Shown: positions 43,401 to 62,048 of the stretch, piece after piece | Position numbering within the stretch: position 1 is the stretch's first letter | Layout: each line of letters opens with the position of its first letter | Source of the DNA: Nitzschia sp. DOCU1 | Lineage: Eukaryota > Bacillariophyta > Bacillariophyceae > Bacillariales > Bacillariaceae | Length of the DNA: 64,000 nucleotides | Direction: 5' to 3' | NCBI GenBank assembly: GCA_951394045.1 | Contig: OX595990.1 | Coordinates: 434,001 to 498,000 of the forward strand | Position numbers and translations under genes: made by a program | Notes under the pieces: model-generated | The model's input: the letters and a program-made list of their open reading frames with translations, nothing else | What the model was told of the DNA's origin: nothing | The model's database searches: none

Positions 43401-46219
43401 GGCACGCCCTTTTTTGCCTTGCTAAATTGGTCGTTAAAATACATTGTTTGGTAGTAATTATGCTCGTTTAAAGGCGGTCATTTGGTTTCGAATTCTTTTC
43501 CTTCTTTTTCCCCCTCTTTTCTTCATAAAATTTGAGCTAGCTACGTGGGGGGGGGTATGCCAAGTTTGGCCAACCGTCGGCCACGTAGGTAGTACTTGGT
43601 AGGGTCTTGACAGAACTACGCTGTTTCCGTCCAAAAGAGCCCTCTTTTCAAGTTTTTTTCGTAATAAGCTGCTAGGGTTCCGGAATAAACTGCTAGGGTC
43701 TTGACACAAAGGCGCCGGAAATGCGAAATCACAAAATATATCGCCAGAACCTGCCTCGTTTAGCCACCAAAAATCCCGCAAATCCAAAAACTCTTAACAC
43801 GAGACATCGCGCGAAAAGCTTCCAAAACAGCCCAAAAGAGGGGGGTTGAGCATTTTGCAACTAGATTTGGCTATAGAATGACTACGGTCCTGAGATTTTG
43901 AGGATATATAGTTCACTACCATAGCCCGGCGTTCCTAGGTTTATAGGTTCGTAGCAATTAATCTCGGCTACTTAGTAATCTCGTAATATTAGCAATTGTC
44001 GTGTGATAAGCGCACTGTATGATACGGTCAAAATCCATATCACACCACACTTCGTCTAGCTATTCCTATTCCAAGATGTTCCTACGTTTAGAGGTCTACA
44101 AATAATAGCTCTTTGAATATAATTTGTCCGCTATTGGGTTCTCAAAGTCGTTTTTGTTGTTCCCTCAGCCAAGGCTCTCTGACTGCCCCAATACGAGTCG
44201 TTCTACATCAAAAGCGGGATGTACTATTCATACCACTTGCAGTACCCGCGACAGAGGAATAGTGGAAGACTTTCACCACCCTAGAAACCCCGCCAGAATG
44301 ATTGTAGAACATTCTTTTTCGAAAATTGACCATCATCTAACAACACAGTCGCAGGCATTCAAGAGCATCCTGCTAAGAGCCGACAATGGTACCACCAAGA
44401 TGGTTGATTGTAGAGTCCTACCACCTTTCCATCATCTCCAGTGTCTTTGAAATCGATCGGCAAACCAAAGGCAGCCTCGTAATGGCATCCGAAGATGATA
44501 ATAGGAGCCGGAAGACAAAGATGCAATAAAAATTAAGGCGGCGTTAGCGTCATGAATGAGTTCTTTACAAAAGATCCAAAACAATAGACGTCTCTATAAT
44601 GACACGAACGACAACTTACCTGGTTTGTTCCTTCTGAATCGTCCTCTAACGAGCTATAACCGCGTCAACAACCTCGTCGGTCGACGAGGAATTTTCATCA
44701 AATCGTTGCCTCGTGAAATTAGAACCATTCTCCGCCAAAACGAGCTTTAATAACCAGAGAAGCGGCTCGAATAGGCTTCGATACGTTGTTGATCGATTGC
44801 AATAAACGGGGGTAAGAAATACTTACTACAGCACTTGCAATCGTTGACGCCGTCATTGTGGTTTTGTGGCCGAAAGATCCGCACTCATACTGTACAGCAG
44901 CAGGCCAAAATGGCATGAATGCGCGCACGCTGGCACGCCCTTTTTTGCCTTGCTAAATTGGTCGTTAAAATACATTGTTTGGTAGTAATTATGCTCGTTT
45001 AAAGGCGGTCATTTGGTTTCGAATTCTTTTCCTTCTTTTTCCCCCTCTTTTCTTCATAAAATTTGAGCTAGCTACGTGGGGGGGGGTATGCCCAAGTTTG
45101 GCCAACCGTCGGCCACGTAGGTAGTACTTGGTAGGGTCTTGACAGAACTACGCTGTTTCCGTCCAAAAGAGCCCTCTTTTCAAGTTTTTTTCGTAATAAG
45201 CTGCTAGGGTTCCGGAATAAACTGCTAGGGTCTTGACACAAAGGCGCCGGAAATGCGAAATCACAAAATATATCGCCAGAACCTGCCTCGTTTAGCCACC
45301 AAAAATCCCGCAAATCCAAAAACTCTTAACACGAGACATCGCGCGAAAAGCTTCCAAAACAGCCCAAAAGAGGGGGGTTGAGCATTTTGCAACTAGATTT
45401 GGCTATAGAATGACTACGGTCCTGAGATTTTGAGGATATATAGTTCACTACCATAGCCCGGCGTTCCTAGGTTTATAGGTTCGTAGCAATTAATCTCGGC
45501 TACTTAGTAATCTCGTAATATTAGCAATTGTCGTGTGATAAGCGCACTGTATGATACGGTCAAAATCCATATCACACCACACTTCGTCTAGCTATTCCTA
45601 TTCCAAGATGTTCCTACGTTTAGAGGTCTACAAATAATAGCTCTTTGAATATAATTTGTCCGCTATTGGGTTCTCAAAGTCGTTTTTGTTGTTCCCTCAG
45701 CCAAGGCTCTCTGACTGCCCCAATACGAGTCGTTCTACATCAAAAGCGGGATGTACTATTCATACCACTTGCAGTACCCGCGACAGAGGAATAGTGGAAG
45801 ACTTTCACCACCCTAGAAACCCCGCCAGAATGATTGTAGAACATTCTTTTTCGAAAATTGACCATCATCTAACAACACAGTCGCAGGCATTCAAGAGCAT
45901 CCTGCTAAGAGCCGACAATGGTACCACCAAGATGGTTGATTGTAGAGTCCTACCACCTTTCCATCATCTCCAGTGTCTTTGAAATCGATCGGCAAACCAA
46001 AGGCAGCCTCGTAATGGCATCCGAAGATGATAATAGGAGCCGGAAGACAAAGATGCAATAAAAATTAAGGCGGCGTTAGCGTCATGAATGAGTTCTTTAC
46101 AAAAGATCCAAAACAATAGACGTCTCTATAATGACACGAACGACAACTTACCTGGTTTGTTCCTTCTGAATCGTCCTCTAACGAGCTATAACCGCGTCAA
46201 CAACCTCGTCGGTCGACGA
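40499..46219. repeat. Tandem array of ~1,531-bp units (three full, one truncated)
   Basis: The word GTTTGGCCAACCGTCGGCC starts at 40503, 42033, 43564 and 45096, giving periods of 1530, 1531 and 1532 bp. Units differ only at scattered single bases (for example CTCCACC or CTCCGCC near 41671 and 43201) and in a G-run of 8, 9 and 9 at the junctions. Each unit carries the same 108-codon plus-strand ORF (41063, 42593, 44124, 45656) and minus-strand ORFs starting MDLRDFWWLNEAG and MRAFMPFWPAAVQ, with donor-like GTAAGT words. None resembles a known protein. The fourth unit ends abruptly at 46219. Very recent amplification or gene conversion is implied. Confidence 0.95.
41063..41389 (+). CDS. Unit-borne 108-codon ORF (repeated identically in all four units)
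   Basis: It starts MSAIGFSKSFLLFPQPRLS and ends HHLQCL. Identical copies lie at 42593-42919, 44124-44450 and 45656-45982. There is no signal, membrane helix or recognised domain. Identity follows from the near-identity of the whole unit, so it says nothing about coding. It could be noncoding satellite sequence. Confidence 0.15.
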   Translation: MSAIGFSKSFLLFPQPRLSDCPNTSRSTSKAGCTIHTTCSTRDRGIVEDFHHPRNPARMIVEHSFSKIDHHLTTQSQAFKSILLRADNGTTKMVDCRVLPPFHHLQCL

Positions 46220-46241
46220 CATCAGAGGGCCGGAAAATGCA
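46219..46241 (+). repeat. Left terminal inverted repeat
   Basis: ACATCAGAGGGCCGG followed by AAAATGCA. It pairs with 61798-61820 in inverted orientation, with one mismatch at position 16. The first A may belong to the array (the target ends GACGA). Confidence 0.75.
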
Positions 46242-46850
46242 ATCTCGTACTATTGAATTTAAATTAGGTATGCCCTATAGATTTGACTTAAGAATCCCAC
46301 TCCACAATATTGCCCCCCAATCCTCAATTAGGAACAAATCATATCCCCCCCCCCCTCATGCCACCCTCATCTCCCGAACCACGTCGCATCCATGCCACAC
46401 ATTCAAAGTCTGCCCTCAAATCCGACATCGCACCAACATTCCCTTTCACATTCATCATCCACACTTTCAACCCAGTACTCTAATCCTGAACCACATCCAC
46501 TACCCGTGCATCCAACCTATGATGTAACCATAAAGATTGGACCAACCCCCCGCATTCCTATGTCAACCTCCCAGTCCCCATAAGCAAATTCCAGATTCTC
46601 TCAACTTTAGGAACTGCCCTTCCAACTTGGCCCTCTAACGTGAAATTCCCATCCTCTTTCCAAATTCTATCTAGCAATCCATCTCAAATGCTACCGTTGC
46701 AACTCACTTACACGCCCCATCAACTGCCAATCCTATATCAACGGTAATCCCTGCCGCAAGTTTTTCACGCCCAATATCATTGTGGCATAAAAGACAAAAC
46801 CCACTCCTCAACTTCCTACTACACACAAATCGCCCACTGCCTGCCACCAA
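46242..46850. other. Left subterminal region of the element
   Basis: C/A-rich and G-poor on the + strand, with runs such as CCCCCCCCCC near 46347, no long ORF with protein character, and many short CCATCC/CCAC words. The right end mirrors this as a G-rich strand. Confidence 0.5.
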
Positions 46851-47246
46851 ATGCCGACTCCCAACAACATTACCCAAGACCCAGAAGATACCTACTTCGA
46901 TGCAGAGGGATTTCCGCAGCTTCCCCTATCGGAATTAGCAAAGCGTCTCCGTGACATGACCGCCCCTGTGGCCACCACGAACAACAACAAACGGGGAAGA
47001 ATCAAAGTCCGCTCGCACTACCGCAAATGGCGCTCTTCTTATACCAAGAAAAAGACTCATACTCCACATGAACCCAACCAATCTACTATATCACAGTGGC
47101 TTCATGGAACAGCCCAGCAAAAGAAGAAAAACCCAGAAAGCGCCATCAACCAGACACCCCAAATGCAAGCAGACCGCAGCCTTGCTATGTCCCTTCATAT
47201 AACAGAAGTTCACAACTTTGTGGCACCTACCAACCAAACTAAGTAA
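46851..47246 (+). CDS. Small basic protein, unknown (131 aa)
   Basis: It begins MPTPNNITQDPEDTYFDAEG, then a basic block (KRGRIKVRSHYRKWRSSY, TKKKTH), then QSTISQWLHGTAQQKKK. The last resembles a weak PCNA-interacting (PIP-like) motif: Gln, two residues, Ile, two residues, Trp-Leu. The frame ends at ACTAAGTAAGTATC, which could instead be a splice donor, so the 3' end is uncertain. It is the first ORF inside the left end of the element. A DNA-associated role is speculative. Confidence 0.4.
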   Translation: MPTPNNITQDPEDTYFDAEGFPQLPLSELAKRLRDMTAPVATTNNNKRGRIKVRSHYRKWRSSYTKKKTHTPHEPNQSTISQWLHGTAQQKKKNPESAINQTPQMQADRSLAMSLHITEVHNFVAPTNQTK

Positions 47247-47353
47247 GTATCATCCACTAATCAACGGTCTCCAACGATCCTACCGGACAGTACCACAACA
47301 TTAATACTAGTAATAAAGAACTAGCTCAATCTATTCTTTATTTAATTTATTTA

Positions 47354-48352
47354 CTACAATCCTCCCACTCCATGCAATAATATATTCACCCGGTGAGGTG
47401 GGTCTGTATAGGTTGGATCTGCCATTATGGCAGCTGTAGCATGCTTGAACTTGGTGGGATCCCATATAAGAACAGCACCTGGAGGGACCTCCATTAGGTA
47501 GGGACTTCCGTGCCGCCCCCTAGTACCACCAAGTTTCTGATGCCAAATTTTCAACATCTTGCCATTGTCGAGGTTTAAAAATATCACGATGGGATATTCC
47601 GGACACCCCCACCTGGTCGTCTCGAGCTCGTCCGTATCCATATCCACGTGCAACTCTGGATCCTTCTTCCCAGCGGCAATAGCAGCTTGATTCTTGAAAG
47701 GCTTGATGTACGCAACATCACAATACCGTCTCTCCAACCACCCCATGACCTCCTTCAGTCCATCGATGAAACCCGAAGTGACCGGGCAACCATCCAACTT
47801 TATCCCCCATCGCCCACTTGCCTTTTGCTCAAACAGATATTTTCGACTGACCGCTCCGTTAAACATGGTCTCCCACTTGAATTCATCACCTTGTCGAGCC
47901 TTCTTCCTGCTCCTATCAAATAATTCACTGCGGATTGCTGTCAGCCCATCTTCATCGAAAACATCGTGCAACAAAATAAACCCAAGATCCTTGAACTCGT
48001 CCTCCCAATTATCGTATCGCAATCTCCTATATTTGACAGAACCATCGGGCAACTCCACCTTTTTCTTTGTATCTCGCCTAACCGTCCTGCTTGACAGCTT
48101 GTTTGCCATCCATGAGCCGAAAAGGAAACCAATCTCGTGAGCAACATCTCTTCCAGCTTCCAGCTTCAGCGACCGGTCTTTCAATTCTTCTCGTTTCTGC
48201 AGCAACATCTGCCTCAATCTTCGACCTTTACTCTTGCCATGCAAGACAACCTGTGTACGGAAATTGAAATACCGCCTAGGGTAATCGGTAATAAAATCCT
48301 GTGGTGCCCCCACAGCTGGGACGGGTGGTGCAACTGCCTCCTCCATTTTCAA
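47354..48352 (-). CDS. 2OG-Fe(II) dioxygenase-like protein in the element
   Basis: 332 aa, uninterrupted. The N-terminal third is basic (KGRRLRQMLLQKREELKDR). The C-terminal half has the order expected of the double-stranded beta-helix of 2-oxoglutarate/Fe(II) oxygenases: ELHVDMDTDE (H235, D237 as HxD), PIVIFLNLDNGKML, VPPGAVLIWDPTKFKHAT (distal H304) and PHRVNILLHG (R321 as the 2OG-binding Arg). The spacing is plausible, but overall similarity to a named family is not evident. TET/JBP-type oxygenases are known to travel with some eukaryotic transposons, so a nucleic-acid-modifying role is one idea. A protein or small-molecule hydroxylase is the alternative. Confidence 0.55.
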   Translation of the reverse strand: MKMEEAVAPPVPAVGAPQDFITDYPRRYFNFRTQVVLHGKSKGRRLRQMLLQKREELKDRSLKLEAGRDVAHEIGFLFGSWMANKLSSRTVRRDTKKKVELPDGSVKYRRLRYDNWEDEFKDLGFILLHDVFDEDGLTAIRSELFDRSRKKARQGDEFKWETMFNGAVSRKYLFEQKASGRWGIKLDGCPVTSGFIDGLKEVMGWLERRYCDVAYIKPFKNQAAIAAGKKDPELHVDMDTDELETTRWGCPEYPIVIFLNLDNGKMLKIWHQKLGGTRGRHGSPYLMEVPPGAVLIWDPTKFKHATAAIMADPTYTDPPHRVNILLHGVGGL

Positions 48353-48637
48353 TCTACAACGACTGCCACAACAAATTCATCACTTACCCTTTGCTTCTAT
48401 TCCAACAACCTTCTTCGCCAAGCAACGGCTCCAACACAACAACCAATCAGACTTCTCAAATTTTGATATGCCCATGCAATGATTTCTGAAGGGTCACCCA
48501 ATGGGCCGGTTCCATCTTTTGAAATACGGTATCCAATCAAAGAGGATTTATCCACCTGATCCCACCAATGAAAACGGCTGCCAAAATAATCACATATGCC
48601 CACTGTCCTATCCACCACACTATTCGAGCTAGTCAAG

Positions 48638-48800
48638 AAAATCCGTTTGAAGGAACACATAATCCTCTCAAGGTAACCGATTATCCAACCAACGCCACAG
48701 ACACGATAATACAAAGGAAATAAAATCAGCCAATCGTAGACCCATTAATTTAATACGCCCTTTCATCGATTTCTAAACGGTCACACAATGAGCCGTCGAG
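48638..48800. repeat. Element module copy 1
   Basis: Box a, AATCCGTTTGAAGGAACACA and TAATCC, then GGTAACCGATTATCCA, then box b, ACGCCCTTTCATCGATTTCT followed by AAACGGTCACACAATGAG. The same arrangement recurs at 52781-52930 and, shorter, at 59492-59601. It lies between the divergent 2OG-like and 1,240-aa genes. Confidence 0.65.
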
Positions 48801-48958
48801 ACAAGTTTTTACTCAGTACTGCAGAAGTGTCTAATCCACCTACCCGTGTAGAAAACCTACCACGAAATCATTTTTGGTGAGTGGAATGAATCGAATCGAC
48901 CCATCTCTATCCTGGTATGCAGGGTCCAGGATGCGGCAGCAGCCCAACACCATCACAG

Positions 48959-48990
48959 AAAATCCGTTTGAAGGCTCACATAATCCTTTC
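48959..48990. repeat. Element module copy 2 (box a only)
   Basis: AATCCGTTTGAAGGCTCACA followed by TAATCCTTTCC, ending a few bases before the ATG of the 1,240-aa ORF. No box b follows. Confidence 0.6.
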
Positions 48991-48995
48991 CAAAC

Positions 48996-51900
48996 ATGAC
49001 CTCATCCTACAAACGCTCGGGTGGTCGAACCGAGCCGACCCTTTCTGTGGATGTTCAAGGCGTCGCCTCTATCCACCTTACTAAGAGGAGCTTTATTTAT
49101 CGTGCAATCAGCGCCGTATACACACAAGAGACCGATCAACGGCGAGCCCTTGTGTTCTTTTTTAACAAAAAAGTTCTTCTTCCAACATCCTCGATTGGCG
49201 CTGACACAATCATCGTCACAGCAAACCAACGAGCAGAATCCCTTGATGTCCAAGAAACAACCTTCCTCCACAGCCGCGATCCTAAACTATTGGTACTACA
49301 TCAATTTGTTTACGACGAACTTTCAACTCGGTACAAATGTAACCGGGAAAAGAAAAATGCGTCCATGAGAAGGCTTCGTAATGGACGAAAACCCCCTCGT
49401 CGCGACTACAACATCCTCTACATCGGAATGGAACGCCCTGGCTATGTTCGAAATATTGAAACTTTGTACCAAGAGGCGACAAAGCTACCATCCTCCCTAC
49501 GGCAGCGGATACGAGATGAAGCGCGGATTGTTGCAACTGAAAACGATGGAATTCAACGGCGGGTTTACACTGTCAATCGCAATCCTACCAATTCCAGGTT
49601 CCACTATGACATGGACCTGACGAGCTACCGACGGGCAAAGCCGTTCCCACCCGAGCTTATCTTCAACGAGGTTTACGTTGACTACATTTGGATGCCATCG
49701 GAGTATTTGTTGGGCATCATTAGCAGAGATTTTTGTCAAAGTTTCCTTCCTGACTTGGCATCGGGCCGGATGCCGAAGGGAGGTCGAGTGTACCTACCCC
49801 TCTCCTTCCCAATTTTGCAGAGGATCTTCGAGAATTGGACTCCATTTCTGGAATGTCATTTCCTTTTACGATTTCTGCGACCGGATCAGGAAGAGGAGAT
49901 GGTGCTCAAAAGAGTTACCGACAGCTTGGATCTTAAATTGCTAGGAAAGGACGATGGGGTACTGCCCAACGGTGTCCTAAGGAGCGAGGTGGAAGAACTC
50001 CTGGAGACTACCTGCGTCACCAAACCTTCACTACTCTACGAATTGCTCCCGCTATGCTTCCCTGATGCTACTTTAAGGTGCCGTTTTCTCTGCCTAAGTC
50101 GTCGCGAGGCCAGCGATGTGCCTGAGGCACAACCAGCCAACCTTGTAAATAATAGCAGGGATCAAGTGACTTGTCCTTTTTGCCATTTGTACCTGCGTCC
50201 AAGGCGCATGTGTTGCCAGTCCCTGTCATTGCGCTCGCCAGCCAGGTCTGCTGTCGAGCGGGCAGTGAAGACCGATTGGTGGACCGGTGTTATCCCGGAT
50301 GACGATGAAGACAATCAGAGCTGTGATGACGGCTCTAGCTGTGAATGGCAAGAGAGGGAAACCAAGAAAGACCGGGTTGTAAAACCTCCATCAAACCCAC
50401 GCCACAACGATCGCCCAACAAAGGCCAAGATGATGCAGGGAGATCATGATGCTGTCAACCGCACAATCGAAAAAGAAATGAAGATGGCCGACTCAACCTC
50501 GGGACCAAAGGGGACGCTGGCCATTCTACCACGGGACCAAAAGATGTCATCGACCATGCTGCGTCGCAATTTCCGCCTCGCCAACGAGCAATTGATAAAA
50601 AGCAATTTCGGGCCTGAGAGCTACTGGGTTGAAAAATCGGACAAAATCTCGTGCACCCTTTGGTTCGGTTTGCGAGAGAAGGTGCACACGGTGTCGGGCC
50701 GAGGCTTCTTAGAAGAGTTCGCCAAGAGGTACAACATTACACCAGAAATCATGGCAAACAATGTCGACCATTTGTTCCTCAATAGCAACCGACCCTGTGT
50801 GATCAACACTCATGATGTTGCCGGTATTCAAGACAAAGCACTGGGGTCTCTCATCAAGATGCCTGCTTCCCTGCTCGGCTGCTCCTACCTGGTTCAGCTC
50901 GACTGGGCGATGGACAGCCTTCTCTCGCATGCAGACGAGATGATCGACAATTCGAGCATAGACTCCTTCCGCAATGTTATCGCACAGCACAATGGTAGTT
51001 GTCCAAGAGCAGGCCAGTCTTGGAAGCGGGCCAATGGGGTTGGTGTCGCAACCCCAGGTCTATTCGCAAGTTCCAAAATCCTGTCCGATTCCTACCGGAG
51101 TGCCCTCTTTAGGCTGAATGTGATCGCTCACCACCAGATTTTGGAGATTATGGTGGGGCATCTAGCCGAATATGATCGCCAGAGCCGCAATGACAATACC
51201 CGTCTAAAGGTGGTCAAGGAGTGGTTAGATTTCCTTTTACCTGTGTCTCTTTCGTTGGAACAAAGGAATCTATGCACAACTGGTCTACGAATTTCGGATG
51301 CCGTTTCGGTTTTGATAGGTAGCGCATATCTACATTTCGACTCAATGAACGGAGCAAAGGTCGGTCATTCAGACCAAGTGACGGTCGTGACAAAACAGAT
51401 TGATTGGCGCAACCATGTTAAGAGGGAGGAAAACATTTCCAAACTCTTGTCAAGCCAGGTGCCCCTTGTTGGCTCCTCTGTCACAGTGGTCAACTACGGT
51501 CGGTCAATTAACGATTCTCAGGCAGCGCAGATGGAGGGACTTGCCGACATCGATGACCCTCTCATCAAGGAAATGATGGCACTAAATGAGGTTGACTTCT
51601 GGCAGGATGCAAGCAAACTGGACCAACCACAGCACTTCCAACGCTTTTCCGAAAACCTCAACCCACGAATGACAGTTGGATATGACTACCCGTTCCAACA
51701 TCAAGCCATACCAGAGTCTGCCAACCGGTCTTGGTACATTGGATCATTTGTCAACGTCTGGGCTCGTTTTGTGCGAATGTACTCACCAGTCGTCACTTTC
51801 CGCCACACCGCATCTTTTGTAGCATTCATCACCAGAGAATGCAATGGTCAAACACTGATCATCGGGTTAATGGAACAGGAGTTGAATAAGGGGCGCCGGG

Positions 51901-52718
51901 TCGAGACGGAAACCATTCTAAGAGACTTAAGAGTGGAGGCCTTATACGAATGGTTATCACTTCAGGTCATTGGCAACCGTGGTCATTCCGGGGTGATATC
52001 GTGTAAAGACTTTCGGTACCAAAAAATTGACCGGATGTTGTTCGATGTTGATACAAAGGGTTTGGACAAAAGCCGAAAGGACTGTGGACTCTTCATTTGT
52101 TTTTTGACAAGTCAATTTGAGTTGTTAAATGGTAACCAACAGTCACAGCAGGAAGCCTTGCAGATGCTTACCTCCGCCGAGTACCGTAAGCAAAAACTGG
52201 GCAAGCGTGTGACCGAGAATATACAACTTGGATGTGTGAGGTTAAGTGTGGGGATCCAGTTGGCAGCATGTCTTATGCTGATCCCCCTTCCCTACGCTAC
52301 ATGGGCAATGCTTACTAAGGGATCATCAGGCTTCTACAAGGCTGTGGAATACCTTGCAGGTGAAAGTACCGGGGACTCCCTTTCCACCTCCGAGGCAAAT
52401 GCCATTGCAAACAAAACAATAAGTGTCCTCCGTCGACATTCGGTCTATGCAACCATGTCCTGGCTGGACCAATGCTGCTGCCTTTTCCACCGATGGCAGA
52501 TTACTGAGGATGACCGCCGCAAAAAAGATCTCATTCTGTGGTCAAATGACGGGGCACTGTATACCCCCATCCGGGTAAAAGAGGGTACCAAGAAAACCTG
52601 GATACAATTCTTATCCAAGGAGCGTCAATGGGAGAGTTTGGAGAATGCAATTGGAAGGTTTGTTGGTGACTGGAATGGGGTGGCTACGGTGGATGGCGGA
52701 CTGATTGGCTGTATTTGA
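48996..52718 (+). CDS. 1,240-aa protein of unknown function in the element
   Basis: A single uninterrupted frame. Residues 135-275 have a Rossmann-like rhythm: YNILYIGMERPGYVRN, an acidic turn, then FNEVYVDYIWMPSEYL, LPDLASGRMPKGGRVYLPLS. This recalls a degenerate SAM-methyltransferase core (GxG loop, then VxxDYxWMP, then GGxxYLPL). A Cys cluster at about 394-408 (CPFCHLYLRPRRMCC) may bind zinc. An acidic, charged linker (about 430-510) leads to a large C-terminal half with no motif I know, including WYIGSFVNVWARFVRMYSPV and a hydrophobic segment at about 1085-1105. It is flanked by module copies 2 and 3. It is probably an element-encoded accessory protein; the methyltransferase idea is inference. 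Confidence 0.75.
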   Translation: MTSSYKRSGGRTEPTLSVDVQGVASIHLTKRSFIYRAISAVYTQETDQRRALVFFFNKKVLLPTSSIGADTIIVTANQRAESLDVQETTFLHSRDPKLLVLHQFVYDELSTRYKCNREKKNASMRRLRNGRKPPRRDYNILYIGMERPGYVRNIETLYQEATKLPSSLRQRIRDEARIVATENDGIQRRVYTVNRNPTNSRFHYDMDLTSYRRAKPFPPELIFNEVYVDYIWMPSEYLLGIISRDFCQSFLPDLASGRMPKGGRVYLPLSFPILQRIFENWTPFLECHFLLRFLRPDQEEEMVLKRVTDSLDLKLLGKDDGVLPNGVLRSEVEELLETTCVTKPSLLYELLPLCFPDATLRCRFLCLSRREASDVPEAQPANLVNNSRDQVTCPFCHLYLRPRRMCCQSLSLRSPARSAVERAVKTDWWTGVIPDDDEDNQSCDDGSSCEWQERETKKDRVVKPPSNPRHNDRPTKAKMMQGDHDAVNRTIEKEMKMADSTSGPKGTLAILPRDQKMSSTMLRRNFRLANEQLIKSNFGPESYWVEKSDKISCTLWFGLREKVHTVSGRGFLEEFAKRYNITPEIMANNVDHLFLNSNRPCVINTHDVAGIQDKALGSLIKMPASLLGCSYLVQLDWAMDSLLSHADEMIDNSSIDSFRNVIAQHNGSCPRAGQSWKRANGVGVATPGLFASSKILSDSYRSALFRLNVIAHHQILEIMVGHLAEYDRQSRNDNTRLKVVKEWLDFLLPVSLSLEQRNLCTTGLRISDAVSVLIGSAYLHFDSMNGAKVGHSDQVTVVTKQIDWRNHVKREENISKLLSSQVPLVGSSVTVVNYGRSINDSQAAQMEGLADIDDPLIKEMMALNEVDFWQDASKLDQPQHFQRFSENLNPRMTVGYDYPFQHQAIPESANRSWYIGSFVNVWARFVRMYSPVVTFRHTASFVAFITRECNGQTLIIGLMEQELNKGRRVETETILRDLRVEALYEWLSLQVIGNRGHSGVISCKDFRYQKIDRMLFDVDTKGLDKSRKDCGLFICFLTSQFELLNGNQQSQQEALQMLTSAEYRKQKLGKRVTENIQLGCVRLSVGIQLAACLMLIPLPYATWAMLTKGSSGFYKAVEYLAGESTGDSLSTSEANAIANKTISVLRRHSVYATMSWLDQCCCLFHRWQITEDDRRKKDLILWSNDGALYTPIRVKEGTKKTWIQFLSKERQWESLENAIGRFVGDWNGVATVDGGLIGCI

Positions 52719-52780
52719 ATAAAGGTTAAAGATCAAACAATAGAACCGTTTCCACTGTAGAGTTACACTTAATCATAAAT

Positions 52781-52930
52781 AAATCCATTTGAGGGAACTA
52801 ATAATCCTTGACTGGTAGCCGATAATCCACATATGGGAACACAGGTCATAATGCAAACACAAAAAAACCCTATCGCAGAGGACTGATATAATATGCCCCA
52901 TCATAGGTTTCTAAATGGTCACACAATAGG
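52781..52930. repeat. Element module copy 3
   Basis: AAATCCATTTGAGGGAACTA, TAATCC, GGTAGCCGATAATCCA, then ATATGCCCCATCATAGGTTT, CTAAATGGTCACACAAT. Same order, orientation and spacing (about 100 bp between boxes) as copy 1. Confidence 0.65.
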
Positions 52931-52989
52931 GGGAAGAGATGGTCGGCACAAATTGGCTCATAATGTGACCCCTCAGAAGGGCATATGCT

Positions 52990-53900
52990 GCACTTACCAA
53001 CCACTCGTGCCACGTACCAACTTTTGGAAACTATAGAATAAAGTCCCAACTTTACATAGCCGTATCTTTCCATGCAGGCATCTGTTTCAAAATTGAAAGG
53101 TGTCATAAGATGAAGATTTGCGACACGTACATGGTAATTTGATAACATTTTGGGATATGATTTTATTGAAGGAGTAATGTAGCTTTTTGGGGACCACAAT
53201 GTTCTTTGGTACTCTTTGACCTAACATTCCTCGACAATAGCGATATAGATGGTATGATTGAACTCACGCCGTTCACCTGCTGGTTAAATTTGTGAGGAAT
53301 GTTTGCTGTAGGCAAACTAACAGGGCACAACTTTTACAATTGCCAGACACGTTTTTCCTTTTCCTTGAATATGGGGTCCATTTCTAGGGGCCGTCTTTAA
53401 GATCACACATCTTTTGACATAGGCACAAGATTGATTATAGCAAGGACTCGTTAGATGCGCAATTAAAATGCTAACTTGGAAACTTGATAACATAGTGGAT
53501 TAAGGATTTATTGGAGGAGGAGTGTTACTTTAGGTGGACAACAATGGTCTCTTGTACTCTATGACATAACATTACTCAACCAAACGGATATCAAACGTAT
53601 AGTTAAATTGATATTGTTGACCTTCCAGTTGTAATTACAAGCATTTGTTAATGAGGTCAAACTATGGTGGTTTACCTATTACCATTACACGGACCCACTT
53701 ATTCAAATGCACAAATGGGGTGTTTGTTTCAGCTAGCCCGCTTCAAAGACCCATATCTTTGGGCCCAGGAACTCATTCATACGTAGCGAGGCATTTTTAG
53801 ATGCTGAATTACAAAATGTATATGATGAATTGATAATATGTTGGAATAGAGCTGTATTGGAGGTGCACAGCCTATTATTAGGCAACACTCAGTGACTTTG
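52990..53900. repeat. Diverged tandem repeats, ~345-bp period
   Basis: The phrase TTGATAACAT/TTGATAATAT followed by a TATTGGAGG-like word recurs at about 53141, 53486 and 53832. Downstream phrases also recur (ACTCTTTGACCTAACATTCCTC at about 53210; ACTCTATGACATAACATTACTC at about 53558). Identity is roughly two-thirds by eye, so the duplication is old. Confidence 0.5.
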
Positions 53901-54229
53901 CTATCTTACCTGCCTCTTTATTTGAAAACTGCCATATACACGACAACATAAAGTTAGGATCCTAACCTTCCCTGCTGACTTCCTGAAAATATTTGGCTGG
54001 GATCGAAAGGATGTACTCAATGAAGTACCATTACTGACTTGTGAGAGAGTGGACTTCATAGTTTAGAATTTTGGTACCTAGCTCAACCCAGGTAATGATG
54101 CGCATGTGCGCGCAAAGGGGATATTGTGGGCTCGATGTACTACATAACTCATGGATTAAAGTAGGAATGCAGTGCTTCTTGTTTGTGTAATACTAATTTC
54201 AAGCGTACATTCATAGTTGTTTTCAAACA

Positions 54230-57200
54230 CTAAATTCCCTGCATCTTCTTGTGGAGGTAGGAAGAACTTTTGGTCAAGAATTGTGATGCCCACTCAGTGC
54301 GCAAGTGGCGGCATTCCAAAGTACGGAAAGAATCGAGGCTTGGTTTGGTGAGTGATCGGCAAGGAACCTCATCTATACAATAGATTGTTCTTTTGATGCT
54401 TGTCATTGGAACAAGGTGTAGTCTACTATGGTAGACATCACCAACTTTATCGCTTGCCCACGTCCACTTCCGGAACAATTGACTGTTGTCCACATGCGAA
54501 GCATCATTTTCAATAACTTTCATCACAAGTGCAGCATTCGCCGGTGCATCGCATCCAATGTTGACTTCATCTAGCATGTGAAGCAATGCAACCACCCTGG
54601 CCGGCCGGATAATCATTTGACCACCCAACTGTTCTTGAATGGATACACAATCATACCTGGGGCCCCTGCCTTCAAAGTCAGGATGACAACGTATGATGGA
54701 ACCGTCCGCAAGTTCTGTCTTGGTGTACATGTAAATAGGCTCGGCTGTCTCATCCTCCAGCAAAGGGGTCTCATTTGATAACCAATGGACTATCAAAGGA
54801 TCAACCTCAAAGCTTATGTCCTTGTTTTTGCCTGTTCTAAATGACAAATAGGTACCTTCATTCTCAGATTGCACACGGTAACGACCCACGCTTTTGCTGC
54901 CATTATGAGTAGGCTGACCACCGGCCTTCCGGTTCTGTACTCTGTTAGATTTCAGAATTTTCCCAAGGACTTCGCTCTCCGCCCTCCTTATGGAAATCTG
55001 ACCTGTGAAAGTTCCATCGTCCCTCTTTTGTGCAGTCTTGGCCGGACGGACTGCCCATACCTTCAAGTGTCTTTCACCATCATTGGTGTCTCTCCCACTC
55101 GCCCTTCCATAGACGGGTGTCTCCATGAGTAGATGGAACATCTCGATAAACTTTTGATAAGAGTATCCATTAGTTCCAAATCCCCGGCTAGTACCATTTA
55201 CAAGAACTCTTCGCATCAATTCAAGGTTGGCGGATGCCCTTGAGATGTTTTCAGTGGATAACATCTCCCTGTCTGCATATTCAAGAAAGGCCCAATATGT
55301 TAGAAGAGTTTCACATAGATAGGATAGATGGTCAATTGACAGGGTACAGGTGCGGTGCACTCCTGCAGTTTGACAATCAAAGTGAATAGTTGAGGGTGGA
55401 AACATAACCACCTGTTGAGACTGTTCATGGTGGTTCCGATCTACCCGGCTGCCGGTGGGTTCAATGGAACACCTGTAATCCATGGATATCGCCATCGGCA
55501 ATTGCAGTATGCGTGTCTTGTGTTTGTACAGCTTCTGCCTGCAATCCTTGGTTAAGAATTCTTTCAAAACCTCTTCTAATCGGACGTGCAAGTTGTGGGG
55601 GAGACTATGTACCTTCTCCATCTCAACAACAAGTTTGTCTAGTCGCAGGAATTGCAGGGCCTCATCCCGTGACAAGCCTGTTCCGGCATTTGCAATACTT
55701 GTTGCGTGGGGGCCTGCAGCAGGTGCAATCCTTTTGCGTTTCCTACTTGCTCCCTCAACTGCAACTGTTTTATCCCTGTTCTTATTCTTGTTCTCGTCAA
55801 AGTTGGCGGCCAGTCTTGGTAACAACAGTTTTCGGCCCTTCTTAGTTCTCAATAAGAATGCAAGGACGAAGAGTTGACCAACACGTTCAGATCCTGTAAG
55901 CTCAGTAAGCTTGGTAAATCCTTTACGAAAGGAGACCCGGGGGTAATTGCTTGCCTCACCGGAACGGTTTAAGCCTTTTGCAAACATTTGTTCCACATGC
56001 CTGTCAATTGCTGCCTTTGATCCATCGGTCATTGGTCCTATCACAAGGTTGAGAAAGTGTTGGATAACACCACTCTTCATTGTGTGGAGGATGTCTGCTG
56101 TGGTGACTGAGTGGATTCCATTGATGTTTGCACCATACGGTAAGCGGGCAAATGGGTTGTCCACAGCCTTACTCCCAAAAACTTGTCTGAGAATAGACTC
56201 TGACAACCTCTCCCGCACCCCCCTAGCCTTAATGGCAGCATCCCTATTGACCTTGTTTGTAAATATGTCCAGATATTGCAACCAGGAATCAAGGTTCTCG
56301 CTCAAAGGTATGCTGGGCAGATTGACGGCATCATTTATGGTCATGTTCTTGGCTAGGGCGTTCCCTTCTCTAACCCCCATCCTTGCTTTGATCAGGTTCC
56401 TGATGTGAGGTTGATCATCCACTGGGACATTAACATCAGCATTATCGACACCAAAACAGCCATATGTGCAACCAAGTGCCGCCTGTGACAGTGCCTGTAC
56501 AAAGTATGCATCGACCGGGAAACAGGACCGGGAAATAGCCACATCGGTAAGACGTGAATCCACCAAGGCGACTGGTTCAATGGAGCGCAGTGCTCGACTT
56601 GTTGCATCAGTATAGAATGATAAGGTTAGCAGATGATACCAGGGATCGAACTGCGATCCGCCTATCATAGGCAGGAATTTTGAGTTGTAAGTATCCCTAT
56701 ACCAGCTGAAGTCGAGGAGATGTGGTGCCTGTTTATCGTCCAACGGGGGTGGGATGTTGGCAAAGGGGTGACGCATGTCGCACCTGATATTGTCCAGATT
56801 TGAATACACCTCTGAAACCAACTTCTCCTCTAGGTCATTAAGATAGTCAAATCTCCTAACCACCACTTTTTGCCCAGACTCCAAGGTTATGTTAATTCCA
56901 AAAGGTGGTTGATAGCTGGTTTTCCTTGACACCCTACTGAAAAAGTGCTTTCTCGTTGTGATACCTGGCATGAACGGACTGAAATTTCTTTGTTCCTTTT
57001 CTCTTTTCATTGTTGAAATGATGTCATCCATAAGATGTCGTGGAGCACCAGCCTGGTCAGTTAGAGCATAAAGCTCCGCCATCGACCTATCAGAAGCGTT
57101 AGCAACAAACTCCATGGAATCTTGGATATCGAGCGGGAATGATATGTCTTCAGGTGGGTCAGATGCCAGTTTCTCTTCCATGGTGCCCAACTCCATTTCT

Positions 57201-57892
57201 GCATCAGGTTGACCGTCCACTTGGGAGGCCAATGCAAAACTATTGCCCACGGTGGCCGTGGAATTGCCGAGCTTGGTAACATTTCTGTCCGGATTTTGGT
57301 TTAGGTGAAAGTTGTGTTCAATGACCCAGCCATCCCCGTGGTTGCTGTCCTCATCTGTGCTATCACCGTCCAAATCTGAAGCAAAAGATGGAATACAAGC
57401 TGTCTTGCCCTGGTACCTCTCCAACCTTTCTCGTGGGCCGGATTTATTGCTAGTTCTTTTGGAACCTGTCGTTGGTTTCTGGAGGCATACTCGCTGTGTG
57501 CGCACACGGGAAAGGAGGCGTCGTTCTGGAACAGATGCAGGTTTACCACCTCCGTCGTCGTCACTCTCTTCCTCATCTTCAGCTGCCATGTCAGGAATGT
57601 GAATACCACAGTTGTCGAATTCCTGATCTCCTGCCAGTGAGGGTGGCGGGGGCACCTGCTGAAGTAGAGAACCAGCTGCGAATGCTTGCCGGCCCCCCAT
57701 CCAAGATGCAGATGGCCCTCTAGTTCGTGGATTACAGTTCCAACTCTGGTTGTAGTGTGAAGAGAGGCTTTTATAACATTTGAGGCACGTTGCGCACATG
57801 AACCTTTTGCTTTTTGGGTTCACCATGATGGTCGTGTGGTGCAGATGAAAGAAGTGTTTTGCTACCCAAAAATCCGTTACTTCGCCACCCAA
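54230..57892 (-). CDS. Plavaka/CMC-like transposase candidate (1,220 aa)
   Basis: A single frame. The N-terminus has a C2HC-type finger (CATCLKCYKSLSSHYNQSWNC; C33, C36, H46, C53), and a start at MVNPKSK (residue 23) is possible. An acidic linker follows. From about 268 comes MAELYALTDQAGAPRHLMDDI, then WYHLLTLSFYTDATSRALRSIEPV, and at about 580-605 LPYGANINGIHSVTTADILHTMKSG with PRVSFRKGFTKLTELTGSERVGQLF. At about 940 lies GERHLKVWAVRPAKTAQKR followed by TGQISIRRAE. This order (LTDQA-P, an SDKT-like DATS block with EPV, LP-GIH-LH, K-AKTAQKR) matches transposases of the Plavaka type within the CACTA/CMC group as I know them from fungi and diatoms. Acidic DDE residues cannot be fixed without alignment. 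It is the likely mobiliser of the element. Confidence 0.6.
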   Translation of the reverse strand: MGGEVTDFWVAKHFFHLHHTTIMVNPKSKRFMCATCLKCYKSLSSHYNQSWNCNPRTRGPSASWMGGRQAFAAGSLLQQVPPPPSLAGDQEFDNCGIHIPDMAAEDEEESDDDGGGKPASVPERRLLSRVRTQRVCLQKPTTGSKRTSNKSGPRERLERYQGKTACIPSFASDLDGDSTDEDSNHGDGWVIEHNFHLNQNPDRNVTKLGNSTATVGNSFALASQVDGQPDAEMELGTMEEKLASDPPEDISFPLDIQDSMEFVANASDRSMAELYALTDQAGAPRHLMDDIISTMKREKEQRNFSPFMPGITTRKHFFSRVSRKTSYQPPFGINITLESGQKVVVRRFDYLNDLEEKLVSEVYSNLDNIRCDMRHPFANIPPPLDDKQAPHLLDFSWYRDTYNSKFLPMIGGSQFDPWYHLLTLSFYTDATSRALRSIEPVALVDSRLTDVAISRSCFPVDAYFVQALSQAALGCTYGCFGVDNADVNVPVDDQPHIRNLIKARMGVREGNALAKNMTINDAVNLPSIPLSENLDSWLQYLDIFTNKVNRDAAIKARGVRERLSESILRQVFGSKAVDNPFARLPYGANINGIHSVTTADILHTMKSGVIQHFLNLVIGPMTDGSKAAIDRHVEQMFAKGLNRSGEASNYPRVSFRKGFTKLTELTGSERVGQLFVLAFLLRTKKGRKLLLPRLAANFDENKNKNRDKTVAVEGASRKRKRIAPAAGPHATSIANAGTGLSRDEALQFLRLDKLVVEMEKVHSLPHNLHVRLEEVLKEFLTKDCRQKLYKHKTRILQLPMAISMDYRCSIEPTGSRVDRNHHEQSQQVVMFPPSTIHFDCQTAGVHRTCTLSIDHLSYLCETLLTYWAFLEYADREMLSTENISRASANLELMRRVLVNGTSRGFGTNGYSYQKFIEMFHLLMETPVYGRASGRDTNDGERHLKVWAVRPAKTAQKRDDGTFTGQISIRRAESEVLGKILKSNRVQNRKAGGQPTHNGSKSVGRYRVQSENEGTYLSFRTGKNKDISFEVDPLIVHWLSNETPLLEDETAEPIYMYTKTELADGSIIRCHPDFEGRGPRYDCVSIQEQLGGQMIIRPARVVALLHMLDEVNIGCDAPANAALVMKVIENDASHVDNSQLFRKWTWASDKVGDVYHSRLHLVPMTSIKRTIYCIDEVPCRSLTKPSLDSFRTLECRHLRTEWASQFLTKSSSYLHKKMQGI

Positions 57893-58003
57893 AAATTAAG
57901 AACAAAATAGACAAGTACGCACGTGCCCGTCACCTTTTTTTTTGATAAGTATTCTCTACTAAAGAATGGACCAAAAAGAAAAAGTGGACTGGTTGTTTTA
58001 GAA

Positions 58004-59223
58004 TTAAACAACATCAAGGCTCCACTTAATTTGCAACTCTGGCAAATGACGGTGCAACCGTACCATTACATCCTCCTTTTTCTCACAGGCGAATAAGTTA
58101 TCGCCAAGGGACAGGTACTTTAGGGCCGATGCACCATTTCCTTCTATGAAGTTCATGATGGCTTGCATGCCATTTGGACCGATCTTGTTGCTTCCAAGTT
58201 GAGTTCTTCCAAAGCGACAAGATGGTGGACATGTTTCTGTAACTTGTGTGCCCCGGCACATGTTAGGTTATTGTCTTGGAGAATCAGCACCGCCAATTTT
58301 GGAAGGCAGTGAAAGGATAGGGACATGCAACCCAACCCCCTATGACCAAGTCGACAACTCCCAAGGTCAAGAAATGCAAGCTCTTGCATCGTGACCACCC
58401 CGTGCAAGAGGCCTTGACCACCAGTCAGTGATAGTTTGACAGAGTCGAGGTGTAGTGACTTCAAGTTTGGTAGGTGTTGGAGGGTGGAGCCAAGTACCGT
58501 GCGACAGCTCTGGCCCACCTTGCAATTGCTTATAATGAGCGTGTTCAGGTTTGCGAGCTTTGAAATGGAACGAAGAAATCTTAATCCACCGGCTCCTCCA
58601 ATTGTGTAGCCGTCTACTAACAATGTTTTCAGCTTGATTAGCTGCTCGAGGGAGGCCGGTAGCCAAGAGCAGGGAATGCATGGGTGACTTGGGAGGGAAT
58701 TGCCAACCATTATGTGGTGGGAGTATTCTATTTCCAGATGTGTGATTTGGGTGCATTGCAGTAGGGAGGATGCTATTTTTTGTTCGTTGTTTAGATTCAA
58801 GACGCCATCCAGTAGAGATATGGTCTGTAAGGATGGAAAGTATTTCATTAAAGTTGCAAAACGAGATGGAGGACCACCACCACGTGGAGCACCGCCGCCC
58901 GCAGGGTTGGTGAATTTAAGCTCAATAGGATATTTCCCTAGCCATGGGTGGACAGATAGAAGCTCCTCCCATTCTTTGATCGTGGACTCTTTGATGTCAA
59001 TGTAACAAAATTTTACAACTCCGCGATATAATATCATTCTCTCCAAGTAGGGCATGCAGTCCCAGTAGCTGCCGATGAGAAGGGACACCTTTAAAGGTAG
59101 GGCCGGTGGTAATGGTGGCATTGACATTGCCACTATTAGGGAGGAAGGGGACAATGACGGCAACAAAAGTCGTAAGTTTCGATAGAGAATTGAAACGTTC
59201 GATGGCATGATGGTGCCGATCAA
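58004..59223 (-). pseudogene. Leucine-rich-repeat (RNI-like) protein with one frameshift
   Basis: The frame from 59223 to 58153 gives LRRs such as LINLIKLKTLLVDG-type, LANLNTLIISNCKVG, LPNLKSLHLDSVKLS, LAFLDLGSCRLG and LAVLILQDNNLTCAGA, ending LVALEELNL. There a single base is missing at about 58200-58205: the next repeat, GSNKIGPNGMQAIMNFI, ALKYLSLGDN, continues in another frame to 58004. With the frame considered restored the protein would be about 405 aa, but as it stands it is broken (or there is a sequencing error). The N-terminus has a hydrophobic stretch and an RFATLMKYFPSLQTISL repeat. LRR proteins of the ribonuclease-inhibitor type mediate protein binding. It may be cargo picked up from the host. 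Confidence 0.65.
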
Positions 59224-59998
59224 ACCTATTAAATTTAAAGGGTGATGCTATTTAGCAGCCTGTGCTTATAAAAATTGAAAACACAGTAAGATTAGTACGG
59301 AAAAATTAACAAGCGATCATGGGTTGTGCGCAGGTTTGCCTCGTAAAATCATTCGAATTACATGGTTGCATTAATCCGGTTATGGCTTCCTTTTTATCTG
59401 GTGTAAGTACATAAGCAGTTTCTACCGTACCTTTCTTTAGTACCTACAACACCAAGAATATCAGGCAATAATGGAATTGCACCGTCCTAATAATATCCTT
59501 TGAATGGCACTAATAATCCTTAAAATGGAACGGAAAATCCGGTTGAGGTGTCCCAGTTCAAATATGCCCTTTTGTGAGATTACAAAAAGGTCACACAATG
59601 AGAAATTGTGACAGTGTCGTGGTGCGACACCAAAATGGCTTGGGTGTTTTAAATATGCCCATGGAAAAAAGAGGAAAGGTGAGAAGGCAGGTCTTGTCGT
59701 TGGATGACTGCCTGGTACAATTAGCAGTGGAGCGGTGGGGGTTTGGAAAGTATGTTTTGAATTGAGCTAGTATGGCATAGAGGTTGAATGCTATAGAAAA
59801 TTAATAGGAGGGTAATGTCGTGAAGACATACTTTTGAATTGATGGACATAAGCCTGTGATTTGAATGGAAAACACGTGGGGGGAAAGCTTGTGGTGTTGC
59901 CAGTCCGTGGTGGTGTTGTGAGCAGCGGTGGTGTTGTGAGCAGCCCCCTGCAGCAGCAAACACCATAAGAAAGGCGGAACCACAATATTATTTGAAAA
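59224..59998. other. Element spacer with module copy 4
   Basis: Between the LRR gene and the three-exon gene. It holds module copy 4 and, near 59905-59950, a short repeated phrase (GTGGTGTTGTGAGCAG twice). A 63-codon plus-strand ORF (59574-59765) starts at the end of box b and is unassigned. Confidence 0.45.
59492..59601. repeat. Element module copy 4 (compact)
   Basis: AATATCCTTTGAATGGCACT, AATAATCC, then AAATATGCCCTTTTGTGAGA and AAAGGTCACACAATGAG. The two boxes are about 70 bp apart rather than 100. Confidence 0.6.
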
Positions 59999-61220
59999 AT
60001 GGCAGTACAACAACTGGCCGTATCTGAGGAGGTAAATTGTCATAGCTGTTTGTAGAATATGAGTAATTGACAACTGACCTTGTTGTTGTATGGTCACGGC
60101 GGCTTAGGCGCTAGCAGGAACCTACTACCCCAGGTGGTCAAATGATGTCAAAAACTTTGTGTACGAGAAAGCATTTGTCCACATGCAGTTTATTAATTCC
60201 ATGGTTCTCGTGCAGTTTGGTAGTGTTGCACAGAGGGCAGCTTGTAAGGATGTGGGTGTGCCGGACCAGTATGCAGAGGATTTCTGGTCTGTTGTCGGAT
60301 GTTCCTCCTATGAGGAGGCGGTTAGAAGGAAAAGAAGTACACTATACAATGCCTTGAATGTGGCCTTTAGAAAGTACTGTGAGAAACCACCGGTGAATGA
60401 GGAGGGTGATAAGGTGAAACCTCCAGATCCAAAGATGTTTATACCAGTGGATATGGACAGTCAGAGTAAGTACCATTCAAGAATGGGGGGTGTTTTCCTA
60501 GATCGTGTACTAACGGGAATGTTTGGTTGTTAAGGATTTCCAGTAGTGTTGGCTGTTGCACCTAACAACTCTGATGGGTCGTCCGGCACAGAGCAGGAAG
60601 CGGATGCGCAGGAGGGGCAGGATTTGGAGGAAGATGAGTTTGATGAGGTTAAGATACAACGTTGGTCAAGAACGGGTCTGGGTGAGGGTGTGGGTAAGGA
60701 GGAATATGCCAGGTTCTGGGCTGAGTTTGTCAGTGTTTTTGTTGAAAGAGATGCAGGCGGGAGAGGGCAGAGGAGATATGGAAGGTCGCATTGGGAGTTG
60801 TTGAGTGAATATGTGGAAGTACCAATGGAAAGTTTTGCTGTGTTGCTGTATATGAACAACTATGACAAATTCATGAACGAATACTGGAAGTGGGGAAATG
60901 AAGATAGTGCCACTTTGACTAGTGGGTTGACGGCTGCAACTCCAAGTAGTGCTGGGGTTCCTTCCCGCTTCACCGATTGCTCCAGGGGTACTGGCAAGTA
61001 TTCGGGATGGTCGGATGAGGCTATGGTATTGTACAATCTGGTTTTTGCGGTGCTGGAGAGACAAAGACTGGCGTTGGGAAGTAGGAAGTCCTTTGATGAA
61101 AGAGTGAAAAAATTAGTACAGAGGAAAGATTTGGGTAAGAGCAAGAGGAAGTTTGCAGGACGAGTGGAGGTGAGAAATGGAATGTCAAAACTTATGCGGC
61201 TAATGGATGTGGGTGTGTAG
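59999..61220 (+). CDS. Unknown protein, three exons (355 aa)
   Basis: Exon 1 is 59999-60031 (MAVQQLAVSEE), intron GTAAAT...TTAG; exon 2 is 60108-60465; intron 60466-60543 (GTAAGT...CCAG); exon 3 is 60544-61220. The phases agree and the joined frame is 355 aa. Exon 2 encodes PRWSNDVKNFVYEKAFVHMQF, then KRSTLYNALNVAFRKYCEKP. Exon 3 has a strongly acidic linker (EQEADAQEGQDLEEDEFDEV), then a helical domain with SRTGLGEGVGKEEYARFWAEF and a basic C-terminus. No known family was recognised. The 33-bp first exon is the least certain part. Acidic-plus-basic character and position near the element's right end suggest an element accessory gene. Confidence 0.55.
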
Positions 61221-61797
61221 AGTTCTATAATGATAAATGGAGATGGAAAGGAATGTTTGACTGTTCAGGATTAGCATTATGGTTAGATTAGAATGGTTAT
61301 GCAAGAGGGGTGAAACTTGAGGACCGGCATTGGATTGTTGGTATGGGGTCCAGCATTGAGGCGATGATGCGAAAACTTGAGAACCAACATTGGATTGTGG
61401 GGATCCCCTCCAGCATTGAGGTATTGTCATGCCTAGGGGGGGGGCATTGTTGGTTGAATCATGGGAATGAGGTACACAAAGTGGGGTTTAGTGTTGATGG
61501 ATACAGATTGAAGGCTAACATGAGATTGGAAGGTGGTATGGCGGGGGTGCGGGGTGTGCATAACGGAAGTGGAGTCTGGATATTGCATTCTGCTTCATTG
61601 ATGTAGATGTTTACATGGGGATGCTGCATTAGTTGTGAATTTGGATGCAGCATTCTACTTTGGAGGTGAATATTCGCCACGGAATATGCCGCATTTAGGG
61701 CTGGCTTAATATGGATTTGGAGCCGATGTCAAGTGCAGGCATATGTATCAAGAATATGCTGGCATGGAAAGGGGGTAGAATTGAAATTATGGGGGTG
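61221..61797. other. Right subterminal region of the element
   Basis: G-rich on the + strand, with words like GGGGTCCAGCATTGAGG. It mirrors the C-rich left subterminal region. A direct repeat of 60 bp lies at 61313-61432. No convincing gene is present. Confidence 0.5.
61313..61432. repeat. Two ~60-bp imperfect direct repeats near the right end
   Basis: Both copies read AAACTTGAG, then CATTGGATTGT, then TCCAGCATTGAGG. They start at 61313 and 61373. Their position 390-500 bp from the right end is typical of subterminal transposase-binding repeats, but this is inference. Confidence 0.6.
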
Positions 61798-61820
61798 TGC
61801 ATTTGCCGGCCCTCTGATGT
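61798..61820 (-). repeat. Right terminal inverted repeat
   Basis: TGCATTTGCCGGCCCTCTGA then TGT, the reverse complement of 46219-46241 with one mismatch. Confidence 0.75.
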
Positions 61821-61848
61821 AGTAGTGGAAGAATTAGCTACTCTACTG

Positions 61849-62048
61849 NNNNNNNNNNNNNNNNNNNNNNNNNNNNNNNNNNNNNNNNNNNNNNNNNNNN
61901 NNNNNNNNNNNNNNNNNNNNNNNNNNNNNNNNNNNNNNNNNNNNNNNNNNNNNNNNNNNNNNNNNNNNNNNNNNNNNNNNNNNNNNNNNNNNNNNNNNNN
62001 NNNNNNNNNNNNNNNNNNNNNNNNNNNNNNNNNNNNNNNNNNNNNNNN
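61849..62048. other. Assembly gap (200 N)
   Basis: Exactly 200 unspecified bases, probably a placeholder length. Only 28 bp separates it from the element's right end, so the true right flank cannot be read. Confidence 0.98.

Follow-up and report, generated by a model that had tools for sequence, protein, structure and literature searches.

The stretch of DNA analysed here (the window; 64,000 nucleotides) corresponds to positions 434001-498000 of contig C6 in the genome of the diatom Nitzschia sp. DOCU1 (52.08 Mb in 63 contigs, designated below by C-numbers), in which the silicon-transporter family PF03842 has 18 matches, all above the cut-off, with none above it in 14 control genomes, which supports the diatom identity well. 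The original prediction, made from the sequence alone, held that a block bounded by a 23-bp inverted repeat in this window is a giant Plavaka-type DNA transposon that moves as a whole together with its cargo genes. The proposed repeat (46219-46241 / 61798-61820) indeed pairs at 22 of 23 bases, against an expected chance count of such inverted pairs of ~1e-4 (arms more than 5 kb apart, 20 kb, equal base frequencies), and comparison with other copies trimmed it to 22 bp (46220-46241 / 61798-61819, 21 of 22 identical), the outermost A/T pair being flank and not element. The element begins and ends as CATCAGAGGGCCGG...CCGGCCCTCTGATG. At its left end a tandem repeat with a unit of ~1531 bp (40501-46219) halts, as had been claimed for a satellite at this point. 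The caution attached to the right repeat was partly warranted in that a 200-N assembly gap (61849-62048) lies 28 bp beyond it; the repeat itself is a true element end, the last kilobase being found at seven places including the window. The principal features are:

46220..61819, no strand: whole element, 15,600 bp, with the same ends in copies elsewhere in the same genome
46220..46241, plus strand: left terminal inverted repeat CATCAGAGGGCCGGAAAATGCA, from the comparison of copies
47354..48346, minus strand: predicted Fe(II)/2-oxoglutarate dioxygenase-like gene, 330 amino acids (aa), with the motif-based residues H233xD235...H302...R319
48996..52718, plus strand: large partner protein, 1240 aa, with no Pfam family near the cut-off and an HxDxxN motif at residue 780
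54230..57826, minus strand: Plavaka-type transposase open reading frame (ORF), 1198 aa; 122 residues are missing (389-510 in P0001 numbering; net 119 codons) with the frame kept
56526..56535, no strand: deletion site in the transposase, 10 bp of filler repeating neighbouring bases, against 367 bp in two other copies
61798..61819, minus strand: right terminal inverted repeat, 21 of 22 bases matching the left repeat

Copies and target duplications

The left kilobase of the element matched nine places in the genome (six complete, two that are pieces of one interrupted copy, and one of ~56 bp) whereas eight places matched the right kilobase (seven over its full length or all but one base, and one 70-bp partial match at 86%). 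Left ends are present at eight loci of the host genome including the window, with matched stretches 99.86-100% identical, and seven copies, at the window and six other loci, possess both ends:

C6, the window copy: both ends; flanks GA/TA, unmatched
C17: contains an assembly gap bordered on both sides by repeated sequence; 2-bp duplication AT
C1, minus strand: both ends; flanks CG/AA, unmatched
C11: broken by a 6.26-kb insertion; 2-bp duplication AC
C10: 176-bp deletion; 2-bp duplication AA
C5, window-family copy: gap mid-element; 2-bp duplication CA
C12: 7.4-kb derivative lacking two internal stretches; 2-bp duplication AT
C1, plus strand: runs into an assembly gap, without a right end; TA at its left end

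Further copies with the same ends and target duplications, the check proposed for the block, were therefore found, and the chance of at least five matching 2-bp duplications among the seven is ~2e-5 (1/16 each). The transposon group PlavakaB is described as having CATCA..TGATG ends and target duplications of 2-3 bp (PMC12730594); the termini occur in the window family and in a diverged sister family described below, and the 2-bp duplications in five of the seven window-family copies and in both sister copies that were read (TT, TA). That the inverted repeat merely flanks an ordinary piece of chromosome by chance, a reading to which the mismatch between the window's two flanks might otherwise point, is ruled out by the two-ended copies elsewhere in the genome, and we regard its probability as negligible.

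The 14-base terminal sequence has 16 exact copies, 15 of them ends of the element copies listed above; the remaining solo match, at C3:3034596, was set aside as being only 14 bp long. With one mismatch allowed, the pattern occurs at 29 places, compared with four for the reversed control. A relic match lies near C9:111950 (70 bp at 86% / 77 bp at 84%), and the insertion inside the C11 copy (L030, C11:402118-408376; 6.26 kb) has ORFs of 452 and 1325 aa and resembles a long terminal repeat retrotransposon by eye.

At the window copy the following site is of note:

46218..46219, no strand: left-flank GA, the expected target-duplication site, unmatched by the TA at 61820-61821

Uninterrupted tandem units predict GAGGAATTTTC as the right flank. 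As the left GA faces a right TA and the expected GAGGAATTTTC is missing on the right, the two flanks probably do not derive from one insertion; a misjoin at the repeat, recombination or a later rearrangement may be the cause. Our guess is that the window's right end may belong to the C1 plus-strand copy, since that copy has TA on its left and no right end.

A Plavaka-related transposase with an internal deletion

Five relatives of the 1198-aa ORF were recovered among 7994 candidates scored, and one of these, P0001 (1275 aa), is the same protein as recorded in a different public source. The Pfam Plavaka model PF18759 (cut-off 26.3 bits) is exceeded by the homolog P0005 (29.1 bits) and by the transposase of a third lineage in the same genome (30.8 bits). 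The window transposase is homologous to P0005 by alignment, and its assignment to the Plavaka family is made through these relatives. A profile search of the PDB with the transposase alignment returned no match. PlavakaB transposases are described as having a D..D..E signature, with C(2)C and H(3-4)H placed between its second D and the E. Across six aligned Plavaka-type proteins besides the window ORF, D365, D473, C498, C512 and H658 (P0001 numbering) are invariant.

The transposase-like gene of the prediction is Plavaka-related, with the correction that the window copy's version carries an internal deletion. D473 falls in the skipped segment and so is absent from the window ORF, and two other copies have it; the full-length transposase is encoded unbroken in two genomic copies. 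Residues 389-510 are skipped in the C6, C10, C17 and C1 plus-strand copies, coincide with the assembly gap in the window-family copy on C5, and belong to a region missing from the C12 copy. Since the deleted form is present in at least four copies, that form was probably mobilised with the aid of an undeleted copy. Filler bases at deletions are a trace of interrupted repair synthesis in other cut-and-paste elements, and by analogy we infer the same origin for the 10-bp filler at the window deletion.

A diverged sister family and the conserved core genes

The genome was searched with each element protein, match counts being lower bounds, and five clusters of a sister family with CATCAGG ends were identified, the proteins of which have a local identity of 21-34% to those of the window family:

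C5:1433-1443 kb: three core genes
C5:98-108 kb: three core genes
C4:2115-2123 kb: three core genes
C14:1030-1039 kb: three core genes
C11:1950-1956 kb: matches to the dioxygenase-like and large genes only

The order of dioxygenase-like (minus), large (plus) and transposase (minus) genes is kept in four of the five clusters, with the large and transposase genes running towards each other in those elements whose sequence was read, and all five are enclosed by convergent copies of CATCAGGAAAGGGAAAAT. This sequence has 37 exact copies and two with one mismatch (reversed control, 0) and forms 13 convergent pairs spanning 1.5 to 16.5 kb. Two sister elements were read fully, one on C5 (15,254 bp, duplication TT) and one on C14 (14,446 bp, duplication TA). 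Between these two copies, the ratio of nonsynonymous to synonymous substitution rates (dN/dS) was 0.11-0.13 for the transposase, 0.21 for the large protein and 0.28-0.37 for the dioxygenase-like protein. Two right-hand ORFs gave 0.20-0.26 and 0.11-0.12, and a left ORF, with only 90 codons aligned, gave 0.45-0.49.

The dioxygenase-like and 1240-aa genes had been taken for cargo. Because the sister family keeps the same genes in the same order and orientation inside paired ends, most of this cargo is, as judged from sequence conservation, core and not captured material, with dN/dS of 0.11-0.37 in the diverged family; of the proposed cargo set, the leucine-rich-repeat (LRR) gene is the member that still looks family-specific. 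Seven of the 13 paired-end sister elements measure just 1.5 to 8 kb (C2, C3, C4, C11, C13 and C15), and these short elements are perhaps non-autonomous derivatives.

A probable PlavakaB-type transposon in a diatom

The block shares its ends with other loci, is accompanied by 2-bp duplications and near-identical copies, encodes a Plavaka-related transposase and has a sister family under purifying selection, and we assign a probability of roughly 0.88 to its being a near-complete, recently active PlavakaB-type DNA transposon in a diatom, with a mechanism that is partly inferred. The idea of a giant Plavaka-type element moving whole is accordingly upheld, with both ends at other loci and duplications at most of them. 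Several observations weigh against this interpretation. Two of the seven two-ended copies, the window copy and the C1 minus-strand copy, have unmatched flanks; P0001 (20.7 bits) and the C5 sister transposase (18.2 bits) fall under the PF18759 cut-off, and the window transposase ORF alone matches no Pfam model; the CxxC and HxxxH spacing (group motifs C(2)C and H(3-4)H) occurs in the sister family and not in the window family. The dioxygenase-like protein has no significant match in Pfam, NCBIfam or the PDB, its AlphaFold model is unusable (two-row alignment, mean predicted local distance difference test score, pLDDT, 36.8), and the D of HxD is absent (HNN) from the sister copy L047 and the metagenome protein P0007.

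In the mechanism envisaged, the transposase would excise the element at CATCA/TGATG and insert it elsewhere at a site cut with a 2-bp stagger, the gap after excision would be refilled from another copy, and aborted refilling would produce internal deletions, one of them with filler bases. The window copy, its own transposase lacking an aspartate invariant in six relatives, is probably moved by the protein of undeleted copies. With less certainty, the large partner protein may aid transposition, and the dioxygenase-like protein may act on modified bases of the element (e.g., 5-methylcytosine) and relieve silencing, in which case the element, by analogy, may bring along enzymatic protection of its own against the host.

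A viral or virus-like insertion (a Polinton, a virophage or part of a giant virus) would share the size, multiple genes and inverted repeats of the block, and giant Plavaka-flanked repeats are reported beside viral insertions in Amoebidium (PMC11244446). No significant capsid, polymerase or ATPase family was present among the proteins scanned, however, scans of viral contigs with the dioxygenase-like and transposase alignments confirmed no relative, and the Plavaka-type ends and 2-bp duplications speak against a viral origin, which we consider very improbable.

Among described systems, the closest are the PlavakaB transposons of Agaricomycotina, which carry a TET/JBP dioxygenase (Kojima 2025, PMC12730594); the diatom element shares their CATCA..TGATG ends, 2-3 bp duplication, Plavaka transposase and extra dioxygenase-type gene, and differs in its diatom host, large conserved partner protein, end-anchored GC-skew gradient and LRR gene. 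In the diatom protein the motif is HxD, and no relation to TET/JBP was detected, whereas the fungal Plavaka type (PE) has HxE (PMC12730594). The giant repeats of Amoebidium appalachense (PMC11244446) likewise combine a Plavaka transposase with very long, intron-poor, multi-gene units, but consist of tandem gene clusters of up to 50 kb with many tyrosine recombinases, and no dioxygenase is mentioned in the part of that paper at hand. EnSpm-Plavaka of Auxenochlorella (PMC12633428) is also an algal Plavaka-type cut-and-paste transposon, termed potentially active, but resides in a green alga, an unrelated host lineage. EnSpm/CACTA elements belong to the same broad CMCT clade and have CA..TG ends; their CAC..GTG termini and 3-bp duplications (PMC12730594) were not found in the window family, which has CATCA and 2 bp. 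Neither 'diatom' nor 'stramenopile' appears in the text of PMC12730594, and among the papers accessible to a literature search none combined TET, JBP, dioxygenase, transposon and diatom. Dioxygenase-carrying DNA transposons have been described in fungi, and in this diatom the association forms the conserved core of two diverged families, a defined class of giant mobile elements for diatom genomics. The near-identical copies of the first family are fresh enough for movement to be occurring now.

The dioxygenase-like protein and silencing

Of four sister sequences aligned with the window protein, three (L039, L044 and L045; 31-33% identity to it) share its HxD...H...R residues, and P0007 is the sole other database relative. 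A PDB profile search with the dioxygenase-like alignment gave a single match (E 0.75), and Foldseek with the low-confidence 330-aa model gave no match at E <= 0.001, its list being disregarded. Since no family library used matches significantly and the model is poor, the protein is called an Fe(II)/2-oxoglutarate dioxygenase on the strength of its motif, and is at most a candidate member of TET/JBP. The family PF00145 (C5-DNA-methylase) has seven matches at six loci in the host, all above the cut-off, and a DNA-methylation target for the dioxygenase-like protein is therefore possible. PF00145 also includes tRNA methylases.

The TET/JBP genes of fungal transposons are proposed to relieve silencing, and appear to have been captured several times (PMC12730594). 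For the diatom protein, a role other than anti-silencing is a serious contender, if somewhat short of an even chance: it could hydroxylate proteins, carry out AlkB-like repair, belong to some other class of protein, or serve transposition as a catalytically inactive factor. No TET/JBP homology is recognisable in the libraries used, the HNN variants of L047 and P0007 would suit such a role, and the function of the fungal transposon dioxygenase genes is without experimental validation according to PMC12730594. Set against this, the window protein, L039, L044 and L045 retain HxD...H...R, the gene is under purifying selection between the two sister copies, and genes of the C5-DNA-methylase family are present in the host. 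Should the enzyme act on DNA bases, the notion of counter-silencing could be put to the test in a host with C5-methylase-family genes of its own.

Equal-scoring pieces of a closer relative of the dioxygenase-like protein (47-50% identity) are located at C11:2276277-2277094 and C42:13602-14419; the C42 piece possibly represents a duplicate of the stretch on C11, or a haplotype of it.

Strand asymmetry of the element arms

Both arms of the window element are skewed in base composition:

46220..49200, no strand: left arm, plus strand C-rich, skew ~-0.5 at the tip and ~0 near 4 kb
58600..61819, no strand: right arm, plus strand G-rich, mirroring the left arm

Outward-signed GC skew in 250-bp bins (62 for the window element, 61 for C5 and 57 for C14) was 0.46, 0.44 and 0.47, respectively, in the first kilobase and approximately zero past 4 kb in all three, with Spearman correlations between skew and distance of -0.77, -0.77 and -0.88. 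The background had a standard deviation of 0.083 and a maximum of 0.33 (79 windows of 1 kb, repeats left in). In the third lineage (C8), an element with unlocated ends, the left side is C-rich and the right side weakly G-rich. Simple cytosine deamination was rejected as the cause, as AT skew and GC content do not track the skew. Among the papers accessible to a literature search, none on GC skew in transposons was found.

The arms could instead be subterminal sequence maintained by selection (as promoters, G-rich structures or repeats that bind the transposase) and not a mutational trace, an alternative that carries considerable weight while falling a little below even odds. Inverted subterminal repeat arrays are present in the C5 sister copy, third-codon slopes within individual genes do not exceed those of several among 11 host ORFs, one host ORF shows a third-position skew that is uniform at -0.31, and C/G changes are not over-represented in the arms in the unpolarised substitution spectrum. 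The substitution classes (left arm, C/T 0.37 vs A/G 0.10; right arm, A/G 0.36 vs C/T 0.19; middle, 0.25 and 0.26) may mirror base composition only. A mutational trace is favoured by third codon positions in genes on either strand, where skew tracks position rather than gene strand, and by the same decay in families at 21-34% local protein identity; if mutational, the end-anchored skew would offer a readout of the transposition intermediate.

A broader extension of the PlavakaB-type reading is rather unlikely in our estimation: that a diatom Plavaka lineage has co-inherited transposase, partner and dioxygenase down to ~30% identity, with a built-in anti-silencing enzyme outside fungi, and that the skew would record how, after excision, the 3'-ended strands of the element repeatedly passed through a single-stranded stage.

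Other genes of the element and its surroundings

Three further genes lie towards the ends of the element:

46851..47246, plus strand: left small basic ORF, 131 aa
58153..59208, minus strand: LRR gene, 351 aa, with full matches in the window family only
60108..61220, plus strand: right-end gene, in which a single stop separates two open stretches of the same frame, 60108-60530 and 60534-61217

The LRR gene had no match inside sister elements, and beyond the window family the genome search gave only weaker LRR matches. The small end ORFs had no significant similarity between the window and sister families, sister left ORFs included. The two open stretches of the right-end gene are perhaps exons, and its 131-aa part gives a weak DUF6729 signal under the cut-off.

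The third Plavaka lineage (L050, L052; C8:1811501-1825500) encodes a 1236-aa transposase above the Pfam cut-off and a convergent 780-aa partner with 31 genome matches, its own copy and pieces counted. Homology between this partner and the 1240-aa protein was not significant by hhalign and was rejected; the HxDxxN motif, which occurs once in each of four partner proteins and not at all in the 7229 aa of 11 window ORFs outside the element, and the convergent position alone suggest a relation.

Units related to the ~1531-bp tandem repeat have 121 matches over many contigs, several of them single and bounded near unit position 404-417. As single units start and end there, the 'satellite' may consist of tandem copies of a dispersed mobile repeat. 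Elsewhere in the window, positions 6346-12036 hold an ORF of 1896 aa that contains internal repeats, resembles von Willebrand D by eye and has a mean third-position skew of -0.31. A repeated gene family with a common N-terminal cysteine-rich stretch (GPCANPQC..) occupies positions 1707-22642, and one member (20466-21737) is apparently fused to what we take to be a heat-shock-factor-like domain.

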